DNA from: a virus
DNA: 64,000 bases
IMG/VR virus record: IMGVR_UViG_3300033148_008025
Span: 1 to 64,000 of that record
Reading direction: 5' to 3' (one strand)
In this document: positions 2,279-47,568 of the stretch, in pieces
How the letters are laid out: the number at the start of each line of letters is the position of its first letter
How positions within the stretch are numbered: position 1 is the stretch's first letter
Translations under genes and position numbers: made by a program
Notes under the pieces: model-generated
The model's database searches: none
Seen by the model: the letters and a program-made list of their open reading frames with translations, nothing else
Told to the model about the DNA's origin: nothing

Positions 2279-2988
2279 GTTTTTCCCTCATTCTCTAACT
2301 TGCGGGCATCAGACATAAGCGCCAATGCCCTATCTCGCTCATGTTCCTCTTCGTCGCCGTCATGGCCATCGCCAAACATGCAGATTTGTTCGTGGGACTC
2401 CCATGCCAATGCTGCAGCCTTGTATGCATCTCGGACTTTCATGCACTCTACGAGTTCAAGGCCTTGTTCGAGCAACATCTTGGAAAGTTGAAGATTGCTT
2501 TCAATATCATTGCTGCTCTGCAGGCTCATCCTTCTGTTGTTTTCGCGTATGACATCGATTGCATCGAGCGCATACTGGATGGAGTCAGATTGCTTCCTGT
2601 CCTCAGGATGCGCATAGCGAATTTCAACGGCCGGTAGCCCCCGTGGACATGTGGTATGGCAATACGAAAATGACCCATTGAGCTCAAGCCTGGGAACGAT
2701 GTGCACTCCTCCTGCGGGAGAAATGGTGACCTTTTCGGAGTCTTCCTTTGTTGCAAGGTTCTGTGCGTATACAAATGGATCACCCTGTGGCGCGCTTGAA
2801 AGCTTGATCCATTCCCCATCGTTGATGCGGATTATTGTTGCTTCTGGTAGAGAGAGGTCACCGTTGACAAGAAAGTCGAGCGCGGCCGGCGGAATGATTG
2901 CTAGGTAGCACTTTCGCGAGCAACGGTGACTCTCATCGACGAATCCGCAGCCCTCGCTGCACCAGCATAGACTTTTCCTGTAACTCAT
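2275..2988 (-). CDS. Hypothetical Cys-rich/helical protein, 237 aa
   Basis: N-terminus MSYRKSLCWCSEGCGFVD carries a Cys cluster. The middle is beta-rich and the C-terminal 80 residues are helical and very acidic, ending SDARKLENEGKT. That tail resembles the ends of the next two upstream genes (DARKLQEDQR and ARELEKEAKN), suggesting a shared C-terminal module. AGAGGA precedes the ATG. No function recognised. Confidence 0.6.
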   Translation of the reverse strand: MSYRKSLCWCSEGCGFVDESHRCSRKCYLAIIPPAALDFLVNGDLSLPEATIIRINDGEWIKLSSAPQGDPFVYAQNLATKEDSEKVTISPAGGVHIVPRLELNGSFSYCHTTCPRGLPAVEIRYAHPEDRKQSDSIQYALDAIDVIRENNRRMSLQSSNDIESNLQLSKMLLEQGLELVECMKVRDAYKAAALAWESHEQICMFGDGHDGDEEEHERDRALALMSDARKLENEGKT

Positions 2989-3467
2989 CGCTGGTCCTCT
3001 TGTAATTTGCGGGCGTCGTCGCTTAGGCATACGCACTCTAAGCACAGATAGTGCCCATCCCCTTCACATGTGTCGCCTCGCGATGGACCCGTAATGAATT
3101 CGGAGCATGGGTTATCTGTATCTCGGATTCCGTCTTTCCCGTCCAGGTCTCTGTTTCCACCGCCTACCTGCTCCACATCAAAACCACGTACAGCATCAAG
3201 CAACTTGAACGCGAGCAGTCGTGCGCCCTTGGTCGTTAGTACGACGTTGCGCTGTTCCATGATGTGCATCAGGATAAGGTCACGCTTCGAGATAGACGGG
3301 ACAAGTGGCGCAACGTCAAGCAACGTGACGGTGAAGCCATCTCCGCCCTCGTTGGTGTTCAGGGCCTCTACTGGCGTCATTGCCAGCGAGGGCTCAGCCA
3401 TGAGCGAGTGCAGCGTGACGTTGGCCTCGCCGCCGCACGGGCACTTGATTGTCTTACTTGTCGGCAT
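2985..3467 (-). CDS. Hypothetical Cys-rich protein, 160 aa
   Basis: Starts MPTSKTIKCPCGGEANVTL. CPCGG near the N-terminus and a C-terminal Cys-rich stretch (CEGDGHYLCLECVC) bracket a helical core. Ends SDDARKLQEDQR, like its downstream neighbour. Overlaps the upstream gene by 14 bases. Unrecognised. Confidence 0.6.
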   Translation of the reverse strand: MPTSKTIKCPCGGEANVTLHSLMAEPSLAMTPVEALNTNEGGDGFTVTLLDVAPLVPSISKRDLILMHIMEQRNVVLTTKGARLLAFKLLDAVRGFDVEQVGGGNRDLDGKDGIRDTDNPCSEFITGPSRGDTCEGDGHYLCLECVCLSDDARKLQEDQR

Positions 3468-26423: not shown

Positions 26424-26657
26424 CTAGTTGGAGGTCTTTTTCGGGGTCCTGTAACCCGTTCTTCCGCTGATGCCAGGCCTATCGGGGGTGCTCTTCTTAC
26501 CCCTCGTGAAGTACATCGCAATGTCCTTCATCGGGTTTGTAAACCCGTGCCTTGTGATATGCCCATGTCTGTCATGTTCAAACATCCTGGCGCTACAGGT
26601 CTTGCATTTATAGAGTCGCACCATTCGAGACTTGTCTGACATGTTCGCAAGCGACAT
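26424..26657 (-). CDS. Small Cys/His protein, 77 aa
   Basis: MSLANMSDKSRMVRLYKCKT with CKTCSARMFEHDRHGHITRH, a C-x2-C-x7-H-x2-H-like zinc site, and a basic C-terminus. No clear Shine-Dalgarno before any of the three candidate ATGs (26657, 26642, 26624). Diverges from the tmRNA gene. Confidence 0.45.
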   Translation of the reverse strand: MSLANMSDKSRMVRLYKCKTCSARMFEHDRHGHITRHGFTNPMKDIAMYFTRGKKSTPDRPGISGRTGYRTPKKTSN

Positions 26658-26705: not shown

Positions 26706-27063
26706 GGGAATGAAACGGTTTCGACGGAGGGATAGAGAGACAAGAATGCGTGTCGAGGTTAATCGAAGGGCCTCGTATAAAAATCGATTACATCTAATTG
26801 CAAACGATAACTCGTTCGCTCCTGCTCTCGCCGCTGTTGCGTAAGTAGGTTGGGCTCGAAGAGCCTCGAAACAGAATCTTCAGGAACCCCCGGCTGGTCG
26901 GGGTTAGAAACCAGGCATGTCGTCCCAGCAGACAAGTATTAGAAAAATACTGGGTGGTGGAGGCGCCTTTGGTGCCCTGATGGTTGCCGGTCATAACCGG
27001 ATACACACGTAGACTTCTTGGCTTGATACTTTTTGGACTGGGGTTCGATTCCCCACATTTCCA
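26706..27063 (+). ncRNA. ssrA: Transfer-messenger RNA (tmRNA)
   Basis: About 358 nt. The 5' end GGGAATG pairs with CATTTCC at 27056-27062 to make the 7-bp acceptor stem. GGTTTCGACGG near the 5' end is the conserved tmRNA sequence, and TGGGG-TTCGATT-CCCCA is the T arm. A resume codon context GCAAACGA leads into a 14-codon tag frame. The discriminator A is followed by CTG, so CCA is not encoded and would need to be added. tmRNA with SmpB rescues stalled ribosomes; no smpB gene is seen here, so host SmpB is presumably used. One-piece form, same strand as the following gene. Confidence 0.93.
26800..26844 (+). other. tmRNA tag reading frame
   Basis: GCA AAC GAT AAC ... GTT GCG TAA encodes ANDNSFAPALAAVA then stop. 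The AND opening and the Ala-rich hydrophobic end fit bacterial SsrA degradation tags. The terminal AAVA differs from the common LAA end, so recognition by ClpXP-type proteases may differ. Confidence 0.88.
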
Positions 27064-27105
27064 CTGATTTGATAATCACCTCCACCAGCAACACATAGGA
27101 ACGAA

Positions 27106-27936
27106 ATGTTTACACCTGAAGCTATCGCGGCCGTACTCAACACTCACCTGCTAAGAGAACTTGCCAATGGCAATGCTGCTTCGGTCAGCGAAAGCATGGG
27201 GGAGTATTTTACCGCGGAGCTGTGTCAAATGTTCAATGACTCCGGATGGAGCGTTGAGGGCACCCGTGTTAAGCAGGAAGCAAATATCGTAGCGATGAGC
27301 TTCAGGCTTAGTGATCCCGCGTCCGGGAGCGAGATTGTCAAAAGCAAGTGGTGGACAGAACAAGAGCTTCTCTCAGGGGGAGGAACGTTCACGGCCCTGG
27401 GTTCACTGCTACTTCAGGAAGCTGTGGACGAACTTCTTAAAATTGTGATTCCAACGCACAGGATCACAGTGAGTGTCGAGTCGCCCTACTCGTTATCGAG
27501 AGATGCATGCGGAGATGTCTCCCGCCTCATTCAGAGTAAGATGATCGGAGAGATTGTCGGCCAGCATAATGGGAAAAATAAATGTGGAACCACTTACGAG
27601 GTCGACCAGAAGTGGCTCGATTCTGCGACGAAAGAGTTCAACCAGGTCGTTGAGAGACCACCAATGCTTCTTGGTGGAAAACTGAACTCGGATATAAAAG
27701 AACTTGTTGACGATGTTCGAGGCCTCACCTATCCAGGTGCAGATCAGAAAGCATTCCGCGAAAAGTGGGGCCATCTCTTGACTGTTGTAACTAGGGCGGC
27801 CAAGGAGCTCGCGAGGATGGATTTGCCATTCGAGGAGATTTTCGTCATTGGCGGCCGGGTCCGTGCGATGACATCAGCCGGCTTCGGTCGTCGCGACAGT
27901 GGCTGGTTTGAGATTGCCTCGCCCGTCCCAAACTAG
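27106..27936 (+). CDS. Hypothetical protein, 276 aa
   Basis: MFTPEAIAAVLNTHLLRELA, AGGA five bases before the ATG, 42 bases after the tmRNA, so possibly co-transcribed with it. Alpha/beta sequence without Cys clusters or membrane spans. Not recognised. Confidence 0.7.
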   Translation: MFTPEAIAAVLNTHLLRELANGNAASVSESMGEYFTAELCQMFNDSGWSVEGTRVKQEANIVAMSFRLSDPASGSEIVKSKWWTEQELLSGGGTFTALGSLLLQEAVDELLKIVIPTHRITVSVESPYSLSRDACGDVSRLIQSKMIGEIVGQHNGKNKCGTTYEVDQKWLDSATKEFNQVVERPPMLLGGKLNSDIKELVDDVRGLTYPGADQKAFREKWGHLLTVVTRAAKELARMDLPFEEIFVIGGRVRAMTSAGFGRRDSGWFEIASPVPN

Positions 27937-28112: not shown

Positions 28113-28523
28113 ATGTACACCAAAGATCGGGTAGAGCTCGTTGACGAAGTACTCGACGAGCTCACAGTGGAACTCATTGCGGTAGCTTGCCACCAGCAGA
28201 ACAAGACCTATTGCCAGATGATCGGCGACGACAGTCAACCTCTCTGGGATGAGGCTCCGGAGTGGCAGCAAGACTCAGCAGTGGCCGGAGTTCGTCTGGC
28301 TCTTGTCAATCCAAACCCCGCTGCCAGTCACGAGTCATGGCTCGAGCACAAAAAAGCTGATGGCTGGGTGTATGGCAAGGAAAAGGATGCCGAGAAGAAA
28401 ACCCATCACTGCATGGTTCCCTACGGAGATCTGCCGTCAGAGCAGAAGATGAAGGATGAGCTCTACATCAACATGGTTCAGCAGCTCGGTCTCGCTTCGA
28501 ACCTTATCCGTCTCAGGAGCTAG
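28113..28523 (+). CDS. RyR-domain protein, 136 aa
   Basis: Starts MYTKDRVELVDEVLDELTVE. Residues about 25-120 follow the RyR domain (repeat found in ryanodine receptors and in bacterial/phage proteins): IAVACHQQNKTYCQMIGDDS, then W-x-E-A-P-E-W-Q-x-D-S-A-x-x-GV, N-P-x-x-x-x-x-S-H-x-x-W, K-x-DGW-x-YG, H-x-C-x-V-PY-x-x-LP-x-x-Q-K-x-KD. The domain is thought to bind nucleotide-like ligands in some systems. Convergent with the next gene (stops overlap). Confidence 0.8.
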   Translation: MYTKDRVELVDEVLDELTVELIAVACHQQNKTYCQMIGDDSQPLWDEAPEWQQDSAVAGVRLALVNPNPAASHESWLEHKKADGWVYGKEKDAEKKTHHCMVPYGDLPSEQKMKDELYINMVQQLGLASNLIRLRS

Positions 28524-29724: not shown

Positions 29725-29774
29725 GCTCGCCTTTTGTGTGTGGCAATGGAGCCACGGAAAAGGCAGGTATCGAA

Positions 29775-30101
29775 ATGGAACGAAAGTACGAAATCGGCGG
29801 ACACGTCATCTATGTAGACCAGTGGGGCATTCCTCGAGATGCGCTTATCACCGTATGGTGGTGTGGCGATGTTGAGGTTCCAGCCTATGTTAGCGAGAAT
29901 GGAGAGCCGGGATGCAACCTGGTTTTTGTTTCTGGCGACGAGAACCGTAAGGACTCATGTGGTCGACAGACCGTGCGAGAAACATCGGTGGTCCACAAGA
30001 CAGCCCAGCCAGCTCACGGCTTTTACTGGTGCTGGAAAGACGAGCTCGACGATAGCCAACTTAGACGATTGAACTCCGATCGCGCCGAGACGGCTGCGTA
30101 A
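29775..30101 (+). CDS. Hypothetical protein, 108 aa
   Basis: MERKYEIGGHVIYVDQWGIP, then beta strands and CWKDELDDSQLRRLNSD. Resembles small OB/SH3-like 'GxxVxYVDxxGxPRxALIT' proteins of phages. AGG eight bases before the ATG. Unrecognised. Confidence 0.6.
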   Translation: MERKYEIGGHVIYVDQWGIPRDALITVWWCGDVEVPAYVSENGEPGCNLVFVSGDENRKDSCGRQTVRETSVVHKTAQPAHGFYWCWKDELDDSQLRRLNSDRAETAA

Positions 30102-46642: not shown

Positions 46643-46752
46643 GGTGAAACCATTGTACAAGGATTGGAAGAGATAGTGCAGTCCCTGGAATTGTGCCAAC
46701 TTTACACCGATCTGACAGACCAGTAGCTAAAAATAGTTTTTGATGCCTTTCT

Positions 46753-46783
46753 CCCAGAAATCACGCTGAGCGTGATTCCTGGG
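46753..46783. other. Near-perfect hairpin (14-bp stem, 3-base loop)
   Basis: CCCAG-A-AATCACGC / GCGTGATT-C-CTGGG with a single A.C mismatch, between the divergent fibre gene and the small rightward gene at 46797. No U-tract follows. Either a symmetrical operator for a dimeric regulator or a transcript-boundary hairpin. Confidence 0.6.
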
Positions 46784-46796
46784 ATAAGATGCCCTA

Positions 46797-46982
46797 GTGT
46801 TTAGGTCTCTACAGTGCTGGGTACTTGGCCATCGCTGGCGAGTCATGCTCCTGTCTGAAAGACATGAGCGAATGGTGGATGTGCATCCCATGGCTGGAAC
46901 TCTCGCTCACTGCATGAGATGCAGTCTTGTCTGGGATGACATTCCTAGATCTCCCCAAAAATCGACAACTGCCCACCAGTAG
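46797..46982 (+). CDS. Small Cys/His protein (DUF1660-like), 61 aa
   Basis: GTG start (VFRSLQCWVLGHRWRVM). C-W-x-x-GH-x-W ... HCMRC matches the short phage zinc proteins with a C-x4-GH ... C-x2-C site, similar to DUF1660. Convergent overlap of 38 bases with the methyltransferase gene. No strong Shine-Dalgarno. Confidence 0.5.
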   Translation: MFRSLQCWVLGHRWRVMLLSERHERMVDVHPMAGTLAHCMRCSLVWDDIPRSPQKSTTAHQ

Positions 46983-47568
46983 GCTTTTCCAGCATAAACG
47001 TCATGCCAAACCTTCTTCCTTTCAGGGAATCCTTTGGCCACATGTACCAGCAGTATTCGCTGCTATCCTTCTTGCCGTCAGGTCTAAATGATGGCCTCCA
47101 TGGGAGTTGGCCTTTGTCTGGACAGTATTTCGTGAGCCATGGTCCGCGGCCCGCTCCACCAGAAAACCATCCCTGCGCCTGAAGGCAGACAACTATCCGA
47201 GCCCGCAACAGGGCGACTTGCACAAACTGCATTGTTAGACTGAACGGTGGATTCATGATCAGGACGTCGGCCATCGGGATTTCCCATTCCCTGTGAACGA
47301 AGTCCCCATAGGGGAGAATAATGTCTGACTTCCTCTGAAGGTCGCGCAGATACGGATCGAACTCATTATTGAGTTCGCACATGATCCACTTAACGTCTTT
47401 CCTCCTTTCGTTTACTGCGGAGATCATCCTTCCGGTTCCTGCGCACGGCTCGATCCACGTCCCACCCGGCAGCGTGACAAGATCGCTTTCAAGCAGTGAG
47501 TAGACTACTTCCCTTTCTGTTGGGTAGAACTCGTTTTCTTCTACCTTGCGCTTACCCTTCTTACTCAT
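46945..47568 (-). CDS. DNA adenine methyltransferase-like protein, 207 aa
   Basis: MSKKGKRKVEENEFYPTERE. SAM-binding motif I WIEPCAGTGRMISAV and catalytic motif IV NPPF in VLIMNPPFSLTMQF place it with amino-methyltransferases. The FYPTE opening (usually 'FYPTP') is typical of phage Dam-like enzymes. Short C-terminal part, no separate target-recognition domain visible. A role in protecting phage DNA or timing is inferred. No cognate restriction gene nearby. Confidence 0.8.
   Translation of the reverse strand: MSKKGKRKVEENEFYPTEREVVYSLLESDLVTLPGGTWIEPCAGTGRMISAVNERRKDVKWIMCELNNEFDPYLRDLQRKSDIILPYGDFVHREWEIPMADVLIMNPPFSLTMQFVQVALLRARIVVCLQAQGWFSGGAGRGPWLTKYCPDKGQLPWRPSFRPDGKKDSSEYCWYMWPKDSLKGRRFGMTFMLEKPTGGQLSIFGEI

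Follow-up and report, generated by a model that had tools for sequence, protein, structure and literature searches.

Does the phage from which this DNA derives carry a working tmRNA of its own, where does such a gene come from, and what does it mean for tagged proteins that the encoded tag ends in AAVA rather than LAA? In the window, i.e. the whole 64-kb stretch of viral DNA that was analysed, ARAGORN finds a single tmRNA, at 26706-27064 on the plus strand, with the tag ANDNSFAPALAAVA*. The Rfam cmscan search gives a match to RF00023 with 126 bits (gathering score 47, E 7.2e-49) that covers the full length of the model (1-374) and is the sole Rfam match over cut-off across the 64 kb; four bacterial genes that were sampled score higher (202-283). 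The gene order is standard and unpermuted, with 5' acceptor, tag and T arm following each other, and is not the circularly permuted order of RF01849. Membership in RF00023 is indicated by the full-model score, by the 7-bp acceptor stem with G3-U70, A73 and T arm, by the tag frame with a pseudoknot upstream of it, and by four pseudoknots in total. The original prediction of a one-piece phage tmRNA of 358 nt with this tag and these ends was correct in all parts (ARAGORN, Rfam), and its description of a 7-bp acceptor stem and a T arm in a gene that lacks the CCA is borne out by the sequence, a pairing check and the Rfam alignment. It had named a missing covariance match, or missing pseudoknots around the tag frame, as the outcome that would speak against it; the search gave the full-length match at 126 bits, and pseudoknots can be drawn around the tag. 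Positions 26706-27063 are a genuine phage-encoded tmRNA, the parts of which are compiled in Table 1.

Table 1. Parts of the phage tmRNA gene, in window coordinates (PK, pseudoknot)
Feature	Position	Strand	Basis
Complete standard-form (one-piece) tmRNA, 5' G to discriminator A73, 358 nt	26706..27063	+	ARAGORN; Rfam RF00023
Acceptor 5' strand GGGAATG, partner CATTTCC at 27056-27062; G3-U70 wobble	26706..26712	+	7/7 pairs
PK1, CGAGG/CCTCG + TAATCGA/TCGATTA, end 9 nt 5' of resume codon	26754..26790	+	Paired in window, L137, L361 and L465 with compensatory changes
Tag frame ANDNSFAPALAAVA + TAA; GCA resume codon 26800, TAA 26842, A at -4	26800..26844	+	ARAGORN; frame-preserving indels vs L137
PK2, alphaproteobacterial-type, TTGGG/CTCGA + GAAGA/TCTTC, conserved GCCTCGAAACAGAA between	26850..26881	+	Second stem covaries; motif in RF01849 consensus
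PK3, AACCCC/GGGGTT + CTGGT/ACCAG	26885..26914	+	String-matched stems
PK4, TGTC/GACA + CCCAG/CTGGG	26918..26954	+	Compensatory changes in L137
Two hairpins, GGCGCC/GGTGCC and CCGGT/ACCGG, 5' of 3' tRNA-like part	26962..27000	+	String-matched stems
T arm TGGGG-TTCGATT-CCCCA, acceptor 3' strand, A73, no encoded CCA	27035..27063	+	Sequence; Rfam alignment

The discriminator A at 27063 directly precedes CTG, which is why CCA is not encoded. G3-U70 together with A73 is the alanine identity set that is recognized by AlaRS, and the A at -4 of the resume codon corresponds to A86 of E. coli. All four pseudoknots are of the H-type, and the pairing of PK1, PK2 and PK4 is held in relatives by compensatory changes, whereas confirmation of PK3 beyond the window gene is partial. 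The stems were verified by explicit string matching, because MAFFT had placed a gap wrongly in PK1 of L137, a homologue in another viral contig that is identical in about 78% of the window gene's positions. In L137, the second stem of PK1 is TTGTCGA/TCGACAA, with both sides changed and the pairing kept, and PK4 is GGTC/GACC + GCCAGT/ACTGGC, again with pairing preserved by two-sided changes. When the 50-nt segment of PK1 was shuffled 20,000 times at the mononucleotide level, no more than 24 of the shuffled sequences gave an equally perfect Watson-Crick pseudoknot of 5+7 bp. The tag of L137, ANDNTFAPQALAAA, differs from that of the window by whole-codon, in-frame indels, and the tag frame thus appears to be under selection.

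The gene sits amid phage genes. The window belongs to a virus record of 121,454 bp that also encodes helicase, baseplate wedge, portal, terminase and capsid proteins, and no integration module was detectable in this record fragment, in which a tyrosine integrase (PF00589) had no match. The longest capsid relatives have 183-210 kb, and three closer relatives run beyond the capsid gene into DNA that is missing from the window's record. The record is therefore probably a fragment, so that undetected genes cannot be called absent, and the source, an uncultured tailed phage, probably has about 185-210 kb. Its nearest named relatives by terminase and capsid are Salmonella phage Arash and Vibrio phages D69, D148 and D181, with about 27-32% identity. 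SmpB was detected neither in the 121-kb fragment nor in 13 other phage records, while it was recovered in 10 bacterial controls, and the phage tmRNA would thus have to share the SmpB of the host. There was also no tRNA detected in the searched record, no sigma-70-like site for the tmRNA gene in a promoter scan, and no relative of the neighbouring ORF 27106-27936 in viral contigs.

Some further genes of this region may be mentioned. On the strand opposite to the tmRNA, 48 nt from its 5' end and at the place where the leftward and rightward gene blocks meet, begins a 77-aa ORF (26424-26657, -); it has a CxxC pair and by eye resembles a zinc ribbon. At 28113-28523 (+) a phage protein with a RyR domain is encoded (Pfam PF02026, 42 bits), and the gene at 29736-30101 (+), about 2.7 kb from the tmRNA, has a homologue (66% aa) in the capsid-related record G025, around 68788-69111, which is likewise about 2.7 kb from the tmRNA, in opposite orientation and without common adjacent genes.

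As to the relatives of the tmRNA itself, BLAST searches of a phage collection (50,697 annotated records) gave no close sequence match to the window locus and no close relative of L137 and the similar locus L361, and searches with the DNA against 794 host genomes yielded short local matches only. A tmRNA over cut-off was found in 4 of the 33 capsid-relative records, many of which are short fragments; the respective tags are ANDNVDSVELVAQAA (G025), ANDNVRVQSNLSAPLQAAA (G022), ANDNNALAAVA (G011) and ANDNATPALAVDKAA (G032), and the sequences of the three nearest capsid relatives that were fetched (G001-G003) do not reach into that half of the genome in which the tmRNA lies. Large phage contigs with a standard-form tmRNA and an ANDN tag are numerous beyond this set. 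A tree built from 43 tmRNAs places the window gene in one clade with L137, L361 and G025 (support 98/97), G011 and G032 group with another phage gene (99/96), G022 groups with Myxococcus phage Mx1 (97/91), and the sampled bacterial genes (beta/gamma) fall apart from the window clade. L137 and L361 have the acceptor stem of the window tmRNA, and both as well as G025 have the post-tag GCCTNGRAACAGAA motif in common with it, although the tags of the clade differ (ANDNTFAPQALAAA in L137, ANDNSFAAPAYAAA in L361, ANDNVDSVELVAQAA in G025). No homologue of the window phage terminase was detected in the L137 and L361 records, the L137 contig having only 35 kb. With at least three tmRNA lineages inside one terminase-related phage group, an exchange of the gene between phages may be inferred, tmRNA trees being weakly resolved at depth.

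The tmRNA of phage Mx1 (L190/L124, OR576727.2, about 46646-47023; RF00023 117.7 bits, over cut-off; ARAGORN tag VNTNVFGSQMMAAA) lies in a tRNA cluster and is absent from the annotated features of the record; its 3' part coincides with part of a small CDS that the record describes as a Hef-like endonuclease. Another phage tmRNA call, L099 6853-7188, has the very long tag ANDKIVSMDSFRARKGVAALQMVA.

It is the mRNA part that points to the ancestry of the gene. The motif AACAGAA, looked for up to 130 nt from the resume codon, is present in 89 of the 152 permuted viral tmRNAs and absent from all 113 unpermuted bacterial tmRNAs sampled. The latter were mostly from beta- and gammaproteobacteria, so that an unpermuted bacterial clade with this motif is possible outside the sample. 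The motif is also part of the consensus of RF01849 (alpha_tmRNA), and the window tmRNA has the corresponding post-tag pseudoknot, with GAAGA/TCTTC as S2 around GCCTCGAAACAGAA. The flanking stem of PK2 has at least 5 bp in 89% of 125 loci as compared to 19% (max 29%) with shuffled partners; it has 5 bp in the window, L361, L421 and L375 and 3 bp in L137, and in G025 the motif is present and a clear stem absent. A search of viral sequences for ANDN plus CCTNGRAACAGAA, which may omit records near the window, gave 118 loci, in which ANDNFAP-like tags are almost throughout on permuted genes: ARAGORN called 72 of them permuted and one unpermuted (L361), and 45 were uncalled. RF01849 is the permuted two-piece form of Alphaproteobacteria, whereas the window gene has the standard form, was not reported as RF01849 match, and carries two additional pseudoknots upstream of its 3' tRNA-like part. 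Common to both are the tag type ANDN..FAP, which is found also in the permuted phage tmRNAs L338, L339 and L345 (tags ANDNFAPLAAVA, recognized by RF01849 and ending in LAAVA), and the GCCUNGRAACAGAA pseudoknot after the tag, which the window tmRNA shares with permuted alphaproteobacterial-type tmRNAs. With the motif and the covarying stem, the window gene thus qualifies as an unpermuted tmRNA whose mRNA part is of alphaproteobacterial type, and tag type and pseudoknot suggest an alphaproteobacterial ancestry for it and for a small number of other phage tmRNAs of standard form.

A tmRNA-like tag element, GCAAACGA...GGCGGCAGTAGCYTAA with a hairpin, is conserved in a number of viral contigs, with tags ANDDIYLAAVA and ANDSVYLAAVA in L337, L341, L343, L346-L348 and L350-L352, and ANDSHFNMAAVA and ANDSTYHMAAVA in L340 and L342. 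ARAGORN finds no tmRNA at these elements, and those that were scanned have no Rfam match over cut-off; they may represent a tmRNA form that is strongly divergent or has so far not been described. In L342, the tag-like element is followed, about 84 nt downstream, by a 115-nt tRNA-like match at 2959-3073 (-) whose anticodon loop contains an insert of 52 nt.

The ancestry suggested by tag type and pseudoknot would make an alphaproteobacterial host about as likely as not; against it, the nearest named phages infect Salmonella or carry Vibrio names. The tag names no host, since a scan of genome contigs for ANDNx[FY]APA had no bacterial match; the shorter pattern ANDNx[FY]A gave mostly Oxalobacteraceae/Burkholderiaceae and gammaproteobacteria. 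A betaproteobacterial host, initially suggested by the ANDNS prefix, was dismissed, as the RNA tree sets the window gene apart from these bacteria.

Probably, the window gene is a functional phage ssrA that works with host factors. Expression, charging, rescue and the degradation of tagged proteins are inferred steps: the transcript would be trimmed to 358 nt, receive its CCA from the host, and be charged with alanine by the host AlaRS via G3-U70 and A73. Bound by host SmpB, it would enter ribosomes stalled on broken mRNAs, which would be numerous if a lytic phage damages host nucleic acids. The nascent chain would receive Ala plus ANDNSFAPALAAVA, the ribosome would be freed for phage translation, and the Ala-rich C-terminus would direct the tagged protein to host ClpXP-type proteases. 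The phage tmRNA would in this way supplement the host tmRNA and not establish a separate pathway. The idea of the original prediction that the gene may replace host ssrA late in infection finds no support in the analysis, in which the gene had no promoter-like site and the fragment no detectable SmpB. Phage tmRNAs have been proposed to keep the hijacked translation machinery going (PMC9004378, PMC7162821), a recycling of host proteins by phage tmRNA has already been suggested (PMC9004378), and in the case of phage Wildcat the tmRNA is the most highly expressed lytic gene (PMC7474061).

An unlikely alternative has it that the phage tmRNA competes with the host tmRNA, with two residues past ALAA that weaken the ClpX degron, so that tagged proteins escape or are degraded more slowly. 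ALAA is indeed non-terminal in the window (ALAA + VA), in L137 (ALAA + A) and in G011 (ALAA + VA), and substitution of the penultimate Ala raises the KM of ClpXP (PMC7652416). On the other hand, a C-terminal Ala is present in 23 of 23 large-phage tags compared and AA in 20 of them, and with an LVA ssrA tag LacI is still degraded in E. coli, its half-life being about 13 min instead of about 8 min with LAA (PMC3511798). As judged from the tags, the canonical ALAA end is extended rather than lost in these three genes. Endings in -VA recur in phages (G011, L432 with ANDNSIADRLVA, and the permuted phage tmRNAs with ANDNFAPLAAVA), and a bacterial tag ending in ALVA is that of Photorhabdus asymbiotica, ANDNEYALVA. 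The AAVA pattern had no match in 399 Pseudomonadota genomes, but it fixes GCAAACGA and TAA/TAG and therefore misses other spellings, G011 itself having escaped the viral scan with this pattern; the tag ANDNSFAPALAAVA was not found in any other sequence of the analysis. Of the predicted altered degradation, a modest change stays plausible, with AAVA as a mild variation, whereas a marked or qualitative change is weakened by the constant Ala, the recurrence of -VA and the mild effect of LVA. Related phages have tags of widely differing length and ending, with a terminal Ala that stays constant, which argues for continued selection on delivery to host proteases.

Two other explanations are very improbable. 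As ssrA often serves as a site of integration (PMC9004378, PMC11915505), the locus could be a remnant or attachment site, i.e. a host ssrA copy in a temperate phage that integrates there, but the whole gene is intact, its closest relatives are other phage tmRNAs with host genomes contributing the short local matches only, and the 121-kb record has no tyrosine integrase, although one may be encoded elsewhere, as this is a fragment. It could also be a decoy that titrates SmpB and thereby blocks host trans-translation, like the tag-less DS6A RNA, which comprises little beyond the tRNA-like domain and inhibits tmRNA (PMC4131195; PMC11915505), but a decoy requires neither the full tag frame nor the resume-codon context nor the four pseudoknots that the window gene has kept. 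A functional phage ssrA is the reading that we prefer.

Phage tmRNAs are a kind of gene that is already well known, although rarely studied, and the window gene adds one more. They have been described in Mycobacterium phages (Bxz1, Wildcat and others) and Bacillus phage G (PMC4131195), in 402 of 18,146 phage genomes (PMC9004378), and in huge phages, where tmRNA-related genes include SmpB (PMC7162821), and a tmRNA database of 2025 lists 79 phage sequences among 97,179 (PMC11915505). Like these, the window gene is a complete gene in a large phage (PMC4131195, PMC9004378, PMC11915505), but it has no close match in the 50,697 annotated phage records. It is conceivable, though rather doubtful, that a few large-phage lineages have preserved or rebuilt the unpermuted form of the alphaproteobacterial-type tmRNA, and the window gene would then be a living stand-in for the pre-permutation form or a second natural reversal. 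There is a precedent for a gene of permuted lineage in changed-back order, the mitochondrial tmRNA of Jakoba libera, which, unlike the window gene, apparently has no tag frame (PMC11915505). A standard-form phage clade with permuted-type features bears on the question of how and when the alphaproteobacterial gene became permuted.
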